Shown here in pieces: positions 19,843-38,666 of a DNA stretch of 54,751 bases (positions within the stretch are counted from its first letter, which is position 1; each line of letters starts with the position of its first letter). Location of the stretch: the NCBI RefSeq assembly GCF_001723295.1, contig NZ_LPWD01000455.1, positions 1 through 54,751 on the forward strand, in the 5' to 3' direction. Both the position numbers and the translations under genes were made by a program. The stretch comes from Methyloceanibacter marginalis. Its GTDB lineage: Bacteria > Pseudomonadota > Alphaproteobacteria > Rhizobiales > Methyloligellaceae. The notes below the pieces were generated by a model, which made no database searches, had not been told where the DNA came from, and saw nothing but the letters and a program-made list of their open reading frames with translations.

Positions 19843-20537
19843 TTGATAAGAACTCGTGCAACGGCCAAACGGTCACAGGAACTGACTAAGTACAGCAAAC
19901 TATATCAGTCCTATGCGGCTATAGTCCGTCGTGGATTGCCGTTGCTTCCCTCAGAGACACAGTACAACATATCTATATCCCATGATCGGCGCTTTTTATG
20001 GTATCGCGTAGCAAGGTTTGCACGCGAACAGTATTTTCGGCAATCGATGCGGGAGGAATAAAGCTAGATGCCGATCATCCCATGAATTGTTACTACCCGC
20101 CAAAACACTTTGCGAATTATTTCAGATTCGCTTTCGTTCGCGACCCCTTGGATCGTCTCGCTTCATGCTGGCGCAACAGGGTTCTGGATCAGAATTATTT
20201 TCATCTTAGTGGCGATCAGCGTCAATCGATGTCGAATTTCAACTCATTCATCGATTGGGTGCAGACAAAAGACCTTGAGACCTGCGATGTTCACCTGCGT
20301 CTACAATGTCGGCTTATTGACCTCAATCACGTTGACTTCATTGGTCGGTTCGAAAATTTCGATAATGATTTCCGCGTTGTTGCTGCGCACATTGGCTTGC
20401 CGGTGGTCGATATTCCGCACGAAAACCGCAGTAGTTCATCAACATCCGCCGACCTTTACAGTTATGAAACGAGAAAACGGGTAACTGATTTATACGCCAA
20501 AGATGTGGCGATTTTCGGATATACTGGCCGTCTATAG
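19843..20537 (+). CDS. sulfotransferase family 2 protein (frameshifted)
   Basis: A Sulfotransfer_2-type enzyme, a class that sulfates carbohydrates in other organisms. The start is TTG 19843, fixed by GGAGG six bases upstream. The first frame ends ISHDRRFLWYRVA; after one missing base near 20015 the second frame continues KVCTRTVFSAIDAG, so the PAPS-binding segment reads FLWYRVAKVCTRT. Downstream, FAFVRDPLDRLASCWRNRVL is the 3'-phosphate site and DFIGRFENFDNDFR, then HENRSSS near the C-terminus, are family-typical. Joined length is about 231 residues. It is the only plus-strand gene in a long minus-strand block. The break falls inside the cofactor site, so if the shift is real the enzyme is dead. 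Confidence 0.72.
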
Positions 20538-29289: not shown

Positions 29290-30684
29290 CTAGCCGGCGT
29301 CCGTATTTGTGATCTCCATTGCGAGGCCGTTCTGCCGCGATAGCGCGACATCTAGTTGACGCGGAGACTTGAGAGTGCCAGCACCCCGTCCCACGCCTCG
29401 ATAGGTGAAGCCTGCGGCTTCCGCCTGCGCCGGCTGGTAAACGTTCCGCAGATCCACGAGTGCGTCGCCGCGCATCGTTGCCCGAAGCTGCTTCAGATCG
29501 ACGGCACGGAATTCATTCCATTCCGTGAGCACCACCAGAACGTCGGCGTCCCTCGCGGTCTCGAGCGCACTGCTGCACCACTCCACTTCCGGCAACAACA
29601 TCTCCGCATTTTCGCGACCCTGGGGGTCGCACGCTTTGACCGTTGCGCCGCGAGCTTGGAGCATCGGCACGATCACGAGGCTAGGCGCTTCACGCATATC
29701 ATCGGTGTTAGGCTTGAAGGTTACGCCCAAGATCGCGATCGTCTTGCCGCGCACGGACCCGCCAGCGGCTTCTTCGATGCGCGTCCCCATTGAGATCTTG
29801 CGCTCTGCGTTGACTTTCTCGACCTGCTCCACGAGTGAAACCGGACATCTCGCTTCGCGCGCCGTCCTGACAAGGGCGCTGACGTCTTTGGGGAAGCAAG
29901 AGCCACCGTAACCGGGACCGGCATGCAGGAATTTTGATCCGATGCGACCGTCGGCACCGATGGCATTCGCCACCTCACCGACATCGGCCCCAACCATCTC
30001 ACAAAGGTCCGCCACCTCGTTGATGAAGGTGATCTTCATGGCAAGGAAGGCGTTAGCGGCATATTTGGCTAGTTCGGCGGACTCGCGGCTGGTGAAGACT
30101 ATTGGCGCCTTGCGCAGAGCCAACGGCTCGTATAGCCGCGCCATGACCTCTCGACCGCGCGGACTGTCAACACCAATGAGCACACGATCAGGGTGGGTGA
30201 AGTCGCGGATGGCGGAAGCCTCCCGCAAGAACTCGGGATTCGAGCAAACCGCAAAGTCGACATCGGGGCGCAGAGCACGCAACCGCCGTTCGAGCTCCCG
30301 GCTGGTGCCGACCGGCACGGTTGACTTTGTGGTGACGACGATCTCTGACCCGACATGCTGCGCGAGCTCCTCGGCGGCCTCGAAGACGTAGCTCAGGTCG
30401 GCGTAACCGTCGCCACGGCGCATCGGCGTTCCGACAGCTAGGAAGATCACATCGGCGCCCCGGGCGCCTTCCTCGAGCGACATAGTGAAGTGCATGCGGC
30501 CGGCGGCTACGTTCCTCTCGACGAGGTCGTCAAGGCCGGGTTCGTAGATCGGAATTCGGCCCTTCTTCAGCCCCTCGACGCGATCATTGTCCTTGTCGAC
30601 GCAAATAATGTTCCAGCCGAAGTCAGCGAAGCAGGCGGCTGAGACCAGCCCCACATATCCCGCGCCAATCATACAAATCTTCAC
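29290..30684 (-). CDS. ugd: UDP-glucose 6-dehydrogenase
   Basis: Oxidises UDP-glucose to UDP-glucuronate with two NAD. 464 residues, full length: NAD loop MIGAGYVGLVSAACFADFGW, EPGLDDLVERNVAAGRMHFT, VGTPMRRGDGYADLSYVFEA, KSTVPVGTSRELE, SNPEFLREASAIRDFTHPDR, the Lys/Asn region ELAKYAANAFLAMKITFINE, and the catalytic Cys in YGGSCFPKDVSALV. The C-terminal domain has GVTFKPNTDDMREAPSLVI. It supplies the substrate for the epimerase at 13551. It is an upstream neighbour of rfbC but separated by 445 bp, so probably a separate transcript. Confidence 0.96.
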   Translation of the reverse strand: MKICMIGAGYVGLVSAACFADFGWNIICVDKDNDRVEGLKKGRIPIYEPGLDDLVERNVAAGRMHFTMSLEEGARGADVIFLAVGTPMRRGDGYADLSYVFEAAEELAQHVGSEIVVTTKSTVPVGTSRELERRLRALRPDVDFAVCSNPEFLREASAIRDFTHPDRVLIGVDSPRGREVMARLYEPLALRKAPIVFTSRESAELAKYAANAFLAMKITFINEVADLCEMVGADVGEVANAIGADGRIGSKFLHAGPGYGGSCFPKDVSALVRTAREARCPVSLVEQVEKVNAERKISMGTRIEEAAGGSVRGKTIAILGVTFKPNTDDMREAPSLVIVPMLQARGATVKACDPQGRENAEMLLPEVEWCSSALETARDADVLVVLTEWNEFRAVDLKQLRATMRGDALVDLRNVYQPAQAEAAGFTYRGVGRGAGTLKSPRQLDVALSRQNGLAMEITNTDAG

Positions 30685-31045: not shown

Positions 31046-31069
31046 TTGCTGAAAGAAAGTAGTCTGACT

Positions 31070-31764
31070 ATGGATGCGCTGATCAAAACAACACGCGTAG
31101 AAAAGTTGCACCTCCTGTCATACAGCGACCCCGATGGCGTCGCCATTGTTATGCCAAGCCTAAATGTCGCGAAGGCCACCGAAACCGCAAAGATCCTGTT
31201 GAAGAGGGCGGGGATGACGACCACCGTCTTTATTGTGGAGGACACGGTGCGACAGGGCTTCATCAAAACCCTGAACGACACCGCTGCTCAGTTGCGCGTT
31301 CGATATCTGGCTTACGTTGCGGAGGATGCTTTTCCGGGAGTTGACTGGCTCCGAAGTGCACACGCGCGTCTTGAGGAGACCAACCGCGGCCTGCTTGCCT
31401 TCAACTGCGGAAAGTGGCGAGGGCGCATCGCCGCCTTCGGGTTGGTGCGTCTAAGCTGGGTGAAACAGCTTTACGGGGGGCCTGTCTTCTTCCCAGCTTA
31501 CAAAGCGCACAAGGCGGACAACGAACTCACCGTCATAGCCCGCGTTCAAGATCAGCTTGTCTATGATCCAAACTGCGTCCTTGTGGAGATTGATGCTGAT
31601 AAGCAGTTTCGGGAGACTGTCCCAGAGGATAAGCCACCTTTCGCGAGCGTTTCCGTTCGGGCTTTTCCGGGCTCGCTTCGCTTGACGAGTTACGGCCCCT
31701 TGCTGCCGAGTATTTTGTGCCAATGGATGTGAACTCGGCAGATCGCAAGCCAAGGGACGCATAG
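31070..31764 (+). CDS. putative GT2-like glycosyltransferase (frameshifted near the end)
   Basis: About 230 residues. ATG 31070 is preferred to the in-frame TTG 31046. GVAIVMPSLNVAKATETAKI and TTVFIVEDTVRQGFIKTLND resemble a GT-A donor domain; LAYVAEDAFPGVDWLRSAHA supplies a DxF acidic site. NCGKWRGRIAAFGLVRLSW and PVFFPAYKAHKADNELTVI fit a galactosyltransferase-like GT2. Near 31635 one base is missing: the shifted frame reads TFRERFRSGFSGLASLDELR and ends at TAG 31762-31764, sharing one base with the GTG start of the next gene. This TAGTG junction supports the shifted frame as the true end. Donor unknown. Confidence 0.6.
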
Positions 31765-33971
31765 TGCGCTGGTTTTCTCAGAGCAGCTGCCCAAGCCGCA
31801 AGGCATCTTCCTTCTTTCAACGGCCGTTGACCTTTAGCGAGGTGCGCGCTCTCAAGCGGGAGTCTAGAGAGAGTGGGCTACAGGCAGTACGAGATACCTT
31901 CGTCCTCTACCGGATCGTTGGAGTCGATCTGTATCCACCTGTAGCCGGACAGTCGCGAACAAATCTTCAGTTCATTCTTGAACACGAAGAGGCGCTTCCA
32001 AATTGCCAAAAGCGCTACTTGGTCTACAGAATCTTTGACCAAGAAGAGGAGCAGAAAATAGTCGCTCTGCTAGAAAGATTCGGAGCGACCTACACGGTCG
32101 TACCATTCGATCGCTCGGAGTACGCGAGGATCGGTTTTGACCTCCAATCTCTGCCAGAACCAGAGCTCTTGACTGGCCCAACGATGGATCTCTTGAGCGT
32201 GTCCGAACGCCAGCGCTTGCTGATGAGTCTCCATCGCTCGAAGGCCAACTACGTCATTCATAACAACGGAGCCAAAAACTCAGTTCTGCGCGAGGGGCGC
32301 GGACTAGCAAAATGGGTTCTCCCATTTGACGGGACCTGCTTCTTTACGAATCAAGGCTGGCGTCAGTTCATGTCAGACGTACAGCACAAGCCCTACCTAA
32401 AATACTTTGTGGTGCCCATGACACGCGTTGCCTCGAACGAGGATCTCCTCTCGGAGCGGGTCGAGTGTAACCAGAGTGAAGAGCCGCAGCTCGTGTTCCG
32501 GAAGGATGCCGCTGAAAGTTTTGATGAAGACTTTACTTACGGGAGACACTCAAACGTCGAGCTATTTTGGCGGCTTCAGGTCGCTGGCGAGTGGGACCAC
32601 TATAAGGATGATGCGTGGGATCAACAGCGTCGAACTCTGTCCGAAGAGGCACGACAATTCGGAGTCGCCGGCTGGGTTGCTCGCCTATCCTCAGGGGTGG
32701 CAGATCAGGAGATTGAGGACAGGGAGCAGCGTAGTTTAGCGCACACAAGCGCCATTCTCTCAACTCTTCATGCCCTTGATGCGTCAGTTGCCGGAACATC
32801 GAAAGAGACGTTGGTAAGCGTCAGAGAATTGGTCTTGGATCAGGAAAGGCGATCTTCAGACCCTAAAATTTCACACTTGATTGACCTAATACAGCAAACG
32901 GCTGAGCAGGCCTTAAGTCGTGGACCGTATTCAGTGGTCGACAAGACGACCCTCCCGCCGAGTGGGTGTGCGCAAGACTACTGGCATCCGGCCCCCTACT
33001 GGTGGCCAAACCCCGATACCCCCGACGGTCTCCCCTACGTCCGAAGGGATGGTGAGAGAATACCCGGTACGAGCTTGTTCGAGCCTGAGAGCGACAAATA
33101 TGACCGGAGCCGCCTCCAGCGTGTCTTCGATGACTCATTTGTTCTAGCAATGGCGTGGCAGCTCACCGGCAATCAGGTCTTCGCTGACCACGCCGGCAAT
33201 ATTTTCAGGAGGTTTTTTATAGCCGAAGAGAGTCGCATGAACCCGCACTTGGTCTATAGCCAGGTTCGTGCCGGATACAATAGCAATCTTGGATACTCGT
33301 CAGGCATTATCGAGATGAAGGACTTGTACTTCTACCTCGATGCGGTTCGGATCCTTGACCGTGCAGGAAGTATCAGCCGGAGAGAGGTCGAGGCATTCTC
33401 TGCGTGGCTAGACGCTTATCTGTCTTGGCTCATGGACTCCAAGCAAGGTAGGAAGGAACGAGCGGCGAAGAATAACCATGGTACCTGTTATGACTTGCAG
33501 GTAGCCGCAATCGCTTCTTTCTTGGGCCGAAAAGAGACGCTGTACGAGACGCTCGCCCGAGCACAGTCAAGGATAGGGTCTCACTTCGCGGCTGACGGCT
33601 CACAGCCCCACGAACTCCAACGCAAAACGACGCAGCATTATTGTTGCTTCAATCTCCAAAGTTGGATCAATCTTTCTGAGCTCGCGATGCGGTGGAACGT
33701 CAATTTTTGGACTTACAACCCTCCTAGGGGCGGCAGCCTTAAGAGAGGTGTCCGCTGGTTCCTTGGTTTCAGGCAGAGCCGCTGGCCATTCCCACAAAAT
33801 GATGCCTTTGACCAGGATCGCTTCCTACCGATCTGGTTTGCGGCTCGCGATCGGATCGGGGATCTCAGTCCTACCGGGCGTCCGGAGACTGCTTACGAAG
33901 CGAAGCCACTGTTTCATCCTCACGATGGTGTGAGGCCATTTTGGAACATCGGAAGCTTTGGCTCACCGTAG
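31764..33971 (+). CDS. two-domain protein: N-terminal glycosyltransferase-like region + alginate-lyase family domain
   Basis: A 735-residue protein. Residues 400-720 match the alginate_lyase (PF05426-type) alpha-toroid: DYWHPAPYWWPNPDTPDGLP, then RRDGERIPGT, FDDSFVLAMAWQLTGNQVFA, and the catalytic NNHGTCYDLQVAAIASFLG (Asn-His). Residues 25-360 are not a known lyase part; YLVYRIFDQEEEQKIVALLE, NYVIHNNGAKNSVLREGRG and WVLPFDGTCFFTNQG suggest a glycosyltransferase-like or sugar-binding fold. No signal peptide, so it acts in the cytoplasm, unlike ordinary exported lyases. The GTG start overlaps the previous stop (TAGTG), so the two are coupled. It might edit or release a uronate-containing intermediate. 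Confidence 0.75.
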   Translation: MRWFSQSSCPSRKASSFFQRPLTFSEVRALKRESRESGLQAVRDTFVLYRIVGVDLYPPVAGQSRTNLQFILEHEEALPNCQKRYLVYRIFDQEEEQKIVALLERFGATYTVVPFDRSEYARIGFDLQSLPEPELLTGPTMDLLSVSERQRLLMSLHRSKANYVIHNNGAKNSVLREGRGLAKWVLPFDGTCFFTNQGWRQFMSDVQHKPYLKYFVVPMTRVASNEDLLSERVECNQSEEPQLVFRKDAAESFDEDFTYGRHSNVELFWRLQVAGEWDHYKDDAWDQQRRTLSEEARQFGVAGWVARLSSGVADQEIEDREQRSLAHTSAILSTLHALDASVAGTSKETLVSVRELVLDQERRSSDPKISHLIDLIQQTAEQALSRGPYSVVDKTTLPPSGCAQDYWHPAPYWWPNPDTPDGLPYVRRDGERIPGTSLFEPESDKYDRSRLQRVFDDSFVLAMAWQLTGNQVFADHAGNIFRRFFIAEESRMNPHLVYSQVRAGYNSNLGYSSGIIEMKDLYFYLDAVRILDRAGSISRREVEAFSAWLDAYLSWLMDSKQGRKERAAKNNHGTCYDLQVAAIASFLGRKETLYETLARAQSRIGSHFAADGSQPHELQRKTTQHYCCFNLQSWINLSELAMRWNVNFWTYNPPRGGSLKRGVRWFLGFRQSRWPFPQNDAFDQDRFLPIWFAARDRIGDLSPTGRPETAYEAKPLFHPHDGVRPFWNIGSFGSP

Positions 33972-34791: not shown

Positions 34792-35050
34792 GTCGCGTTC
34801 CCGAGGGGCCGCCTCGTTCTGTTCTGCAGGTCGCGCCGCGCGGCGTACCGCCCTGAAGGCGGTAATCCCCCTTGCGCTTGGTCACCGTGGCGCTCTCTTA
34901 GGCCCTAAGGTTCGTCCCGTCCAGAGCGGCCTTCTGGCGTTCGAGGGGGCTCGATGCTAACCATGCCCCGACCGCCTTTGGCGTCGGGCAGCAGCAAGTC
35001 AAACTGAAAACAATGCGGCCTTGGGTTCACACGCTCTCGAGGGCTTGGCT

Positions 35051-36024
35051 GTGAAGGATAAGCTCCTGATAGAGCAGCGCCTGCGCTTCATCGGCTGGGC
35101 GATCACGGCGCTCGCTCTCGCCCTCATCGGCTGGAGCATATCGACCTCCGACTTTTTGGAGACGGACGCATGGCGGGATCCTGCGGTCCTGGCTGGAATT
35201 TTCGCCTCTGCCGCGATTTTCACCGTTTGTCTCTGCCTCATATTCGCAGCATGGTACCTCGTGATCATGAGCATTTCGCAGATTCCTATCTCCTGGCGCG
35301 AAGGCTTCTGCATCTACGCGATCTCGCAGATCTATAAATATGTCCCATCAAACGTGGTCCACCATATCGGGCGGTACTTCATGCTCCGCCAACGTGGCGT
35401 CGACCACAGGGCTGCGGCGTGGGGCTTTCTCACAGAGGTGGTGCTGATCCTGATCGCCTCCACGCTCGTGGCGCTACTTTTCGGCGCGCCGCTGGTGCGC
35501 AATGCAGTGGCGGACTTGAGCAGCAGCACCAGCCTTCTCCTTTTGGTGGTTGGCTCTCTGGCCTTGGTCGTCGGCGCGGGGATGGCAGCCCTCCTCCTTG
35601 GACGAAGAGAGACCCTGCAGAGCTTCCTCAGCCCTTTCTTCCGGGCGCAGGTTCTCCAAGCAAGCATCGCAGCGCTGCTTCTGCATATTGGCGCCCGCGT
35701 GGTCGGAGGCGCGGCTCTTTGGTGGCTCGCGATGCCTGTGCTCGGTTCTGGCGAGCTTGCCCTAGCGGTGCCATTGCTGTGTGGGCGGCTGCCTGGACTT
35801 TGGGCTACATCACCCCCGGGGCGACAGCCGGGTTGGGGGTCCGCGAGGCGATCATGATGGCTGCCTTGGTGGCATTAACGATACCTGTCGCAGAGGCAAC
35901 CCTTCTTGCGTTGGCCTTCCGGGTCGCCACCACCTTGGGCGATCTTCTCTTTGCCGCAATGGGCTGGCTCGTGCAACGCTTCGTTCCGGTTCCTGTGAAG
36001 CCATCGCATCATTCGGAGTCATGA
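35051..36024 (+). CDS. lysylphosphatidylglycerol synthase TM-region (flippase-like) protein (frameshifted)
   Basis: An integral membrane protein of about 324 residues with 7-8 spans. Family markers: QIPISWREGFCIYAISQIYK and YVPSNVVHHIGRYFML (the Y-x-P-x-x-V/G box), FLTEVVLILIASTLVALLF, then after one missing base near 35785 YITPGATAGLGVREAIMMAA, the second signature of LPG-synthase-TM / AglD-like proteins. Stand-alone TM versions commonly sit in polysaccharide loci and may translocate or bind lipid-linked sugars; this is not proven. GTG 35051 is the preferred start. The stop overlaps the next gene's ATG (ATGA at 36021). Confidence 0.75.
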
Positions 36025-37047: not shown

Positions 37048-38666
37048 TTACTTCCTCGTGTCCCAAACGATGATCCCGCGGCCCCTTCGATCAAGCTGCG
37101 TAATGTGCCTCGTATAAAGCTCATCTAGCCGGCGCACAGTCCTTGGGTAACTTTTGAGCCGCTTATGCGTGAAGGCTACAATCAAAAAGTCGTGGCCATC
37201 GATCTCGTCGATCTTTTCTCGAAACTTTTGCGCGGACAACTTCTCGTAAGATGGCCGTATCTTGTCCTCGACCCTCACCCCTCCCTTGCTCATCTTCGGC
37301 AAATAGTAGTTGAGCGTGCCAGTATGATTGGCTTCATACAGGACATAGCTTTCGCTTGGATTTCCGCGAACCGTATTCACCACGAGCTGAGCTATACCGC
37401 GATAATCTTCGTTGATCAGAGATGCAGCTTGGCGACCCCCTGGAGCCGCTATCGCGAGGGCCACGACGATGGCGTAAATCAACGAATACCGGACGTAGTG
37501 ACGTGCCGGATCAAGCGCCTTAATCTTTGAGAGAAGCTTTTTGGCAGACAGAAAGATGTTCTCCACAGCAAGCAGCGTCATGACAGCGAGGGGTGGCGCA
37601 CAGAAAATGAAATATCGCGCGCTGTATCTTTCTGCGTGAGCCACAAGAAACAGCAAGAATGCCATGACACAGGGCACAAAGGCCCAGATGACAACGTAGA
37701 GTGTGAAGTAGCCACGGTCCTCAGCGCCCCGTCCATCGTATCGATAGACGGCCCACACGCCCTGGATTGTCAGAAGGATCAACACTGCCGCCACGGCTAC
37801 TGGCGCTAGGGCGCCGAGGTCTGCCCCGCCAAATGTCGGTCTATCACGTAGTCAGAGAAAATTGTCCACGGGTCAGCTGAAGGGAAATCTGCGCTGTAGG
37901 TACCGCGCTCCTCAAACTGAGCGTAGCGATACGCCATTGCCCAGCCCCAGCTAAAGAGAAGCAAGACCACCGGAACAACACTAATCAACGCAGCCTTTGC
38001 GGTCTCGGCAATGGCGCTCAAATGCGGCTTAATCGTAAGAAGATAGATCAGAAGAAAGAGACCCTGCGCGCCTAGGAAGAAGACGTTGTAGTAGTGCGTC
38101 ATGATTAGGCCAGCGTTCGCCAGCGTCAGCCACACCAACCTTCGATTGAGAAGCCCTCGCCAGCTGCACGGCCTCGGCAGCTTGGTGACGTAGCGATAGA
38201 GGAGCAGCGAGGAGAGACACGTCAGAAATAGGGTCTGGGCGTATGAACGTGCCTCCAAGCCGTATCGCATCGGGAAATACATCACCGTGAAGATGATGGC
38301 GGAACCGAGCGCCACGCGCTTCCCATAGACTTTGTAGGAGAAGAGGTAGAGGCAAAGGGTCGCCCCTACGACGTAGACGTTGGACAGCGAGCGCGTCGCA
38401 AGTTCGCTCGTCCCGAACAAATCCATCCAGTTATATAGAATGAATTGGTACAGCGGCGGATGGATCGAGCTGTACGCCAGCGAGAGGATAGCATCGAAAA
38501 CGGTATCGTGATTAGAACCATCGAGGTAAACCGATATGAACTCGTCATACCAATAGGGACGCCACGGCGCCAAATAGCTGCGCAGCACGAAACCCAAAAA
38601 GAGCACGACGATGAGCGCTGCGTGCTGTTCAAGAAACGCATAGGCAGCAGATCTGAACTTGTTCAT
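37048..38666 (-). CDS. GT39/ArnT-like membrane glycosyltransferase (frameshifted)
   Basis: A GT-C enzyme of about 538 residues that would transfer a sugar from a polyprenyl phosphate on the periplasmic side. It has an N-terminal span, then the first-loop catalytic acids in PYWYDEFISVYLDGS, then SIHPPLYQFILYNWMDLFG and SELATRSLSNVYVVGATLCL. Several spans follow, with RYGLEARSYAQTLFL and IMTHYYNVFFLGAQGLFLLI. One missing base near 37843 leads to FGGADLGALAPVAVAAVL and the C-terminal half, which ends in a soluble domain (TGTLNYYLPKM, IVAFTHKRLKSYPRTV). It is a clear paralogue of the gene at 39847, with the GtrB-like gene between them. Confidence 0.75.

Follow-up and report, generated by a model that had tools for sequence, protein, structure and literature searches.

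Why would a bacterium carry an intact alginate-lyase active site on a protein that has no export signal and appears equipped to build polysaccharide? The question is raised by the gene at positions 31764–33971 of a 54,751-nucleotide contig of Methyloceanibacter marginalis (NZ_LPWD01000455.1), which was analysed over its full length and is called the window hereafter. Our analysis indicates that the product very probably joins a biosynthetic glycosyltransferase (GT) to a domain that acts on uronates, and the question then becomes whether this second domain cuts the sugar chain or epimerises it.

A lyase-type fold and a predicted glycosyltransferase in one protein

The reading frame is uninterrupted and encodes 735 residues from a GTG start. 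It stays open for 26 codons 5′ of the GTG (761 residues in total), a stretch that holds no ATG, GTG or TTG, so that the upstream start with a secretion signal that was looked for has no start codon there. A simple hydropathy scan of the 735-residue protein likewise gave no signal peptide or membrane segment (peak 19-residue Kyte–Doolittle window, 1.01; peak 11-residue window in residues 1–40, 0.19), in agreement with the initial annotation of this DNA. An AlphaFold model of the whole protein, built from our own alignments, has a predicted local distance difference test score (pLDDT) of 85.2 and a predicted template modelling score (pTM) of 0.86.

The C-terminal domain matches Pfam PF05426 (Alginate_lyase) at residues 390–669 (E 1.2e-69; 235.3 bits, against a curated cut-off of 22.2 bits), as well as the sequences of solved alginate lyases (3nfv, E 1.9e-54; BoPL38, 8bdq, E 1.1e-47). 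In structural comparison by VIA-align the domain gives Z values of 41.2 with 3nnb, 40.9–41.2 with the 3nfv/3nnb entries and 36.5–37.1 with the BoPL38 entries; values are lower for PL5 A1-III (∼24) and human DS-epi1 (6hzn; 19.6 over 304 residues). The extra N-terminal region, described initially as about 390 residues long, has that length by the Pfam boundary (390) but only about 350 residues by fold, the lyase fold beginning at about residue 348.

The K-N-N-H-G motif that had drawn attention to the gene is indeed intact, at residues 569–573. Alignments place the BoPL38 residues Y91, D108, Q173, N242, H243, R292, H297 and Y298 at Y412, D429, Q500, N571, H572, R620, H625 and Y626, and all eight are present in the window protein. 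In a tree of lyase domains the fused domains form one clade of 33 rows (support 100/99), apart from secreted, catabolic-type lyases, and within this clade Q500, N571, H572, R620, H625 and Y626 occur in 33/33 rows, Y412 in 32 (one gap) and D429 in 31 (one G, one gap). The 11 comparison rows (nine plasmid lyases and two PDB sequences) keep the same residues wherever a letter is present, except for H297 (6/11). By modelled fold and catalytic residues the domain is of the PL38 type, and its lyase function is putative.

The complete conservation of N571, H572, R620, H625 and Y626, together with nearest structures that are lyases, favours a synthase that carries its own lyase, in which the PL38-type domain would cut the nascent uronate chain by β-elimination in the cytoplasm, whether for setting chain length, for creating unsaturated-uronate chain ends or for clearing faulty chains. 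A precedent exists in that alginate producers retain the lyase AlgL in their biosynthetic machinery, as passages of one source describe (PMC4432689); AlgL, however, is periplasmic according to PDB titles, whereas the protein considered here lacks an export signal. We take cleavage seriously as a possibility, but it is not the outcome that we would choose, and the initial annotation's proposal of synthesis and cleavage in one polypeptide stands in its fold-level and biosynthetic part rather than in the cleavage that it assigned to the second domain.

The same residues could serve a different chemistry. For BoPL38, cited work assigns the abstraction of H5 in syn and anti elimination to Y298 and H243 (PMC13169297). 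Two bases on opposite faces of the sugar, as we would expect for their counterparts, are also what a C5-epimerase requires, so that these residues could act in one. The domain has the toroid seen in the 6hzn match together with H572, Y412 and Y626, a possible counterpart of the active-site His and double Tyr of DS-epi-type epimerases, although lyases have the same set. The DS-epi1 authors argue that minute changes can convert a lyase into an epimerase (PMC8006597). Close in sequence to the catalytic residues, H408, R502, E517, K519, D520 and Y522, among others, characterise the fused clade and are seldom or never found in the comparison rows, which suggests another substrate or outcome. Such changes around the catalytic residues might also suit a domain that performs no chemistry and merely holds the uronate chain for the GT; this is improbable, since both bases, the arginine and the asparagine are found in 33/33 rows, a conservation that would be difficult to account for if the domain were not catalytic.

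Two of the related loci described below also contain alginate-lyase-like domains of a second, deep branch (L012:4978–7062 and the first lyase domain of L013:664–4458). In these domains the position of His243 holds Ile and that of His297 Asp, while Tyr298 is kept, and L013 combines a second-branch lyase domain, a GT and a normal lyase domain in one open reading frame.

For the N-terminal region, the likeness to sugar-nucleotide enzymes proposed initially holds and can be put more exactly as a predicted GT-A glycosyltransferase fold. The AlphaFold model of this domain (own alignments; pLDDT 87.7, pTM 0.88) is placed among GT-A glycosyltransferases by both Foldseek and VIA-align. Its top VIA match is the chondroitin polymerase K4CP (Z 12.3 over 194 residues, root-mean-square deviation 3.5–3.9), followed by CHSY3-CHPF (11.8), RmlT (11.5), heparosan synthase 2 (PmHS2; 11.2) and LARGE1 (10.8); for a predicted model, such near-equal values are indicative of the fold and not of the donor. 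A linker or carbohydrate-binding domain in this position is rejected by the GT-A fold of the model. The motif D189-G190 (LPFDGT in the window, LPWDGN in most relatives) follows NGARN, and D189 is invariant in 19/19 rows of an alignment of the window with its relatives. Going by the sequence pattern, D189-G190 is likely to occupy the DXD position of GT-A enzymes, DXD as such being absent there.

No Pfam or NCBIfam profile matched the N-terminal region above its cut-off and no GT was found among the weak matches, which were taken as chance (Pfam FliX, E 0.008; NCBIfam and PDB acylphosphatases, E 0.02–0.7, all below cut-off). A GT profile of 19 sequences searched against PDB sequences gave chance-level matches only, with no PDB glycosyltransferase among them; by these sequence searches, the domain falls into no described GT family. 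Viral contigs scanned with the GT alignment yielded 18 pattern matches and no confirmed relatives, and the closest viral model to the domain is a Megaviridae glycosyltransferase (BFVD A0A5J6VJ98; E 2.6e-15, 22% identity).

Recurrence of the fusion and its variants

A scan of genome contigs returned 25 loci (numbered with L below), 22 of which hold both domains in one open frame, so the architecture first read from this contig recurs; a chance fusion limited to this contig is rejected by these two-domain relatives. Among these 22, L008 is interrupted by a stop codon within its lyase portion, and in three the contig ends leave only part of the GT (L021, L024 and L025). In L011 the two domains lie in adjacent separate frames. 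L022 and L023 carry the lyase domain only and are nested in the fused clade; a GT profile found no match in their genomes. The alignment mentioned above consists of the window and 18 of the 25 loci, L008 and L011 being excluded as split, L021, L024 and L025 for their contig ends and L022 and L023 as lacking the GT. Across these 18 rows the two-domain frame is kept in distant bacteria at 41–52% identity. The source labels include Desulfobacterales, Hyphomonas, Bacillaceae, Marinospirillum, Salinicola, Devosia, a planctomycete and cyanobacteria; many of these labels belong to metagenome bins and may be incorrect.

The fusion is rare and patchy across several phyla. It was found in 1 of 61 genomes of the nearest-relative set (the window's own), in 6 of 398 genomes of the phylum (its own included, the other five all being two-domain single frames), in 5 of 193 genomes of the family of genome G456 (one being a short fragment with stops) and in 4 of 385 genomes of the class of G455. 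The lyase-domain tree, which includes L033–L037 (absent from the alignment and the models) and from which one of ten plasmid rows (L042, an incomplete frame) was dropped by length while L044, also incomplete, was retained, gives no firm order among the rows outside the fused clade, BoPL38 included. It is discordant with the organisms, and horizontal transfer of the fused gene is therefore likely.

These distributions bear on whether the gene might be an ordinary catabolic alginate lyase that has lost its signal peptide and come to lie in a polysaccharide locus by chance. The family name and the PF05426 match would fit such an origin, but the fusion is conserved across phyla and the protein is the sole PF05426 match in the 80%-complete source genome. 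Moreover, the plasmid-borne lyases of the family sit on other branches of the tree, beside SusD, TonB, KdgM, KduI or GH88 genes, and eight of ten have a hydrophobic, signal-like N-terminal stretch as judged by eye, the other two being incomplete at the start. We consider this origin very improbable.

Several relatives extend the fusion further. The GT–PL unit is joined to GT2 in L020, L033 and L034 and to a putative rhamnosyltransferase in L012, and in L008 it precedes, across a stop, GT2 and a PLOD-type GT. In L002 it lies within a protein of ∼2,900 residues with GT1, GT2 and methyltransferase domains, and in L004 within one of ∼2,800 residues with sulfotransferase, GT1 and GT2 domains. L002 and L012 each hold two GT–lyase modules in one stretch, which would be odd for a chain cutter and in our judgement fits the tailoring of particular sugars better.

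Neither domain always occurs with the other. L057 and L058 contain the GT domain and related neighbours, and their 15-kb stretches yielded no lyase domain; together with L060 and L061, and with L059, which has at most a remnant, they reject the proposition that the GT always accompanies a lyase domain, while L022 and L023 reject the converse. The GT domains of L060:5885–7993 and L061:7231–9639 (minus strand), both without lyase, are divergent, with DGA instead of DGN. The latter frame begins with HIGLEKTGST, which we take to be a sulfotransferase-like motif and which has no Pfam match; two neighbours in L061 are Pfam sulfotransferases. A partner gene of ∼720–890 residues lies directly 5′ of the fused gene in L010:7200–9374, L016:6705–9371, L033:10354–12507 (minus strand) and L034:5928–8114 (minus strand), and the one that was scanned, from L010, gave only a weak glycosyltransferase-28 C-terminal match.

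Columns were counted as conserved if 17 or more of the 18 other rows agree; by this measure the window deviates at 12 of 78 in the GT domain (including N54V, R59P, N88Y, R171K and N191T) and at 3 of 91 in the lyase domain (Fisher P 0.007, with positions that are not independent). For the GT domain L018 comes next, with 10 departures; its lyase domain has 8. Judging from these substitutions, the GT half of the window protein may now use a different donor or be less active; in the lyase-fold half nearly all conserved positions are retained.

Surroundings of the gene

Features of the window are collected in the table. The dehydrogenase that would make uridine diphosphate (UDP)-glucuronic acid matches best a TuaD-type profile, below the curated cut-off of that profile, and lies above cut-off for the nucleoside-diphosphate-sugar dehydrogenase profile TIGR03026. 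Other neighbours include deoxythymidine-diphosphate-rhamnose genes, several glycosyltransferases and methyltransferases. Pfam scans, which covered part of the neighbours in part of the loci, found no salvage gene of the GH88 or KduI type; for that part, their absence counts against cleavage. The G+C content is 0.50–0.58 between 12000 and 27000 and 0.60–0.64 in portions of the flanks on either side, a pattern that would fit a polysaccharide island acquired from elsewhere.

Table. Positions of the two-domain gene, its parts and its neighbours in the window
Feature	Positions	Strand	Basis
GT-A/PL38-type two-domain gene, 735 residues, GTG start	31764–33971	+	Open reading frame, profile matches, AlphaFold model, relatives
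Predicted GT-A glycosyltransferase domain, residues 36–352 (fold core ∼36–310)	31869–32819	+	AlphaFold model, Foldseek/VIA matches, conserved columns
PL38-type alginate-lyase-fold domain, residues 353–735 (fold ∼348–734)	32820–33968	+	PF05426, 3nfv/8bdq matches, VIA Z
Predicted catalytic N571-H572 (BoPL38 N242-H243)	33474–33479	+	N and H in 33/33 fused-clade rows
Predicted catalytic R620, H625, Y626 (BoPL38 R292, H297, Y298)	33621–33641	+	R, H, Y in 33/33 fused-clade rows
Upstream gene (‘up’ domain), ATG at 31070, frame change near 31615–31660	31046–31732	+	50–58% identity to L002/L004
TAGTG, stop of shifted ‘up’ frame overlapping GTG start	31762–31766	+	Sequence, frame comparison
UDP-glucose 6-dehydrogenase-like	29290–30684	−	NCBIfam TuaD-type, E 9.5e-139; TIGR03026
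Methyltransferase, PF13489	34042–34791	−	E 5.1e-15
Sulfotransferase family, PF13469	36118–36870	+	E 6.1e-25; 8.5e-37 including upstream part
Sulfotransferase family, PF03567 (Sulfotransfer_2)	19998–20537	+	E 3.5e-18, profile 78–251 of 252
Sulfotransferase family, PF13469	12277–13221	−	E 3e-10
Sulfotransferase family, PF17784	53353–53991	+	E 4.2e-27

Four sulfotransferase-family genes from three Pfam families lie in this 55-kb contig. The open frame of the one nearest to the fused gene extends upstream across a GCGRSGTT loop, and the PF03567 gene leaves the N-terminal part of its profile unmatched. Further PF13469 and PF03567 matches on other contigs indicate that sulfotransferases are not confined to the locus, and the source organism probably makes sulfated glycans; among 14 well-known genomes used as controls, PF13469 occurs in 2 and PF03567 in none. 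A survey of PF13469 and PF03567 in 15 relatives, from which G463, G464, the genomes of L057–L061 and the family PF17784 were left out, found five with a match on the same contig at a distance of up to 30 kb (G454, below the curated cut-off, G455, G370, G457 and G465), against 0.75 expected under random scatter (P 0.0002), an expectation that ignores the general clustering of glycan genes and sulfotransferases. Elsewhere the neighbours differ: those of L005 (Bacillaceae) include ATP-grasp proteins, L008 has a TupA-like ATP-grasp and L057 a Mur-type ligase. Given such different sets, the polymer is probably not identical across groups and is sulfated in some only.

Directly upstream lies a gene whose relatives in L002 and L004 precede the GT–PL unit within the same open frame; its ‘up’ domain appears GT-A-like in sequence, and the frame has no Pfam or NCBIfam match. 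The coupling of the fused gene to a small GT gene through TAGTG, as initially described, is correct in that the motif is present, but its TAG (31762–31764) is off-frame: as sequenced, the ‘up’ frame stops at TGA 31730–31732, and only by following homology to L002 and L004 through a shift (about 31615–31761 in the window) is the TAG reached. The overlap therefore concerns the ‘up’ gene only if the frame change is an assembly artefact. Other genes of the contig look frame-split by eye (35021–35857 with 35419–36024; 37048–37794 with 37806–38666), which makes assembly indels plausible and suggests that the splits, that of 31046–31764 included, come from such indels or from decay.

Epimerisation or cleavage, and comparison with known systems

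We propose that the protein is a cytoplasmic two-domain enzyme for the synthesis of a surface polysaccharide that is acidic and probably sulfated. Its GT-A domain would extend the chain with a sugar taken from a nucleotide-sugar donor, and the PL38-type domain would hold a uronate of that chain, probably glucuronic acid (GlcA), while Tyr626 or His572 removes its C5 proton. Reprotonation from the other face, which we judge the likelier outcome, would amount to C5-epimerisation at the polymer level, from GlcA to iduronic acid (IdoA), and sulfotransferases would then act on the epimerised product. The proposal builds on the two predicted folds, the conserved catalytic set, the lack of an export signal and the biosynthetic neighbours; which sugar is involved, on which faces the bases lie, in what order the steps run and that the outcome is epimerisation in place of cleavage are what we infer. 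Taken in full, down to epimerisation, it is held tentatively, with somewhat less than even confidence, and our lean from cleavage towards epimerisation is slight, with binding or some other role taking up the remainder.

Tailoring, as opposed to cutting, is favoured by the separability of the GT and lyase domains in related Bacillaceae loci (L057 and L058 without lyase, L022 without GT), as if the lyase-domain step were optional, and by the sulfotransferases and the putative source of UDP-GlcA seen at some of the loci; in L004 a sulfotransferase is even fused into the same frame as the GT–PL unit. Several observations weigh against epimerisation or the biosynthetic setting assumed for it. The conserved catalytic residues are equally those of true lyases, and the lyase structures (Z 36.5–41.2) are well ahead of DS-epi1 (19.6). 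In the survey above, 9 of 15 relatives lack a nearby PF13469 or PF03567 match on the contig that carries the gene, three of them (G106, G114 and G462) having such genes on other contigs only and six (G180, G456, G458, G459, G460 and G461) having none genome-wide; a tenth, G296, has the gene on a contig of only 9.5 kb. Among the loci, many of them short, only the window, L006, L007 and L008 were found to hold a relative of the UDP-glucose dehydrogenase. The departures in the window GT domain may mean that transfer activity is altered. To our knowledge, no iduronate polymer has been described from any of these organisms.

Lyases are known as degraders, and here the same active site lies within probable polymer-making enzymes of several phyla, together with a glycosyltransferase-like family for which no Pfam or NCBIfam match was found. 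The system thus offers a test case for the use of a lyase active site in synthesis, to cut or to epimerise; if it epimerises, it would be a new bacterial source of iduronate and possibly a one-protein tool for glycosaminoglycan-like polymers. An open-access literature search, limited in its terms, found no paper on a lyase–glycosyltransferase fusion, its one result being on phage depolymerases.

Among known systems, BoPL38 (8bdq) and Bacteroides ovatus BACOVA_01668 (3nfv/3nnb) share the fold of the lyase domain, and BoPL38 its eight active-site residues; these are single-domain proteins of alginate use, whereas the fused clade is separate, non-exported, joined to GT-A and different at 408, 502 and 517–522. 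K4CP and PmHS2 have in common with the window protein the GT-A fold and a uronate-polymer context, but no detectable sequence similarity to its GT domain. Each consists of two paired GT domains, and we know of no lyase fold in either. AlgG and AlgE have a different fold from the domain considered here. AlgL, AlgG and AlgE resemble it in placing a uronate lyase or C5-epimerase within the biosynthesis of the polymer itself, as passages of one source set out (PMC4432689); unlike the cytoplasmic fusion, they are separate periplasmic or extracellular proteins.

Prokaryotic enzymes that form IdoA for a glycan include Bermanella RED65 and Halobacterium Agl32. RED65 is GLCE-like and the Agl32 model is nearest to AGE-superfamily epimerases, a relation to PL38 being described for neither in the relevant passages of PMC13308652; the GLCE-type RED65 is the one bacterial glucuronyl C5-epimerase named in those passages and in the corresponding ones of PMC4432689. 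Sulfated exopolysaccharides of marine bacteria are already listed in a 2014 review (PMC4189415), so there is no novelty in a bacterial polymer merely being sulfated.

DS-epi1 and DS-epi2 share an α/α toroid related to the PL domain and a similar partnership with sulfotransferases, DS-epi2 itself bearing a sulfotransferase domain (PMC13308652). They reside in the Golgi lumen, their structural similarity to the window domain is far below that of PL38, and DS-epi1 has an additional β-sandwich domain and a Mn site (PMC8006597). By analogy one might picture an animal-like dermatan/heparan sulfate assembly line, with GT-A polymerising domains, a fused PL38-derived GlcA C5-epimerase and sulfotransferases beside or inside the protein; the epimerase would form a class of bacterial iduronate-forming enzyme unrelated to RED65 and horizontally spread across phyla. 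We regard this wider picture as less likely than not. The fusion and the sulfotransferase genes beside it suggest that the way in which some bacteria make and modify acidic sulfated glycans may somewhat resemble that of animals.

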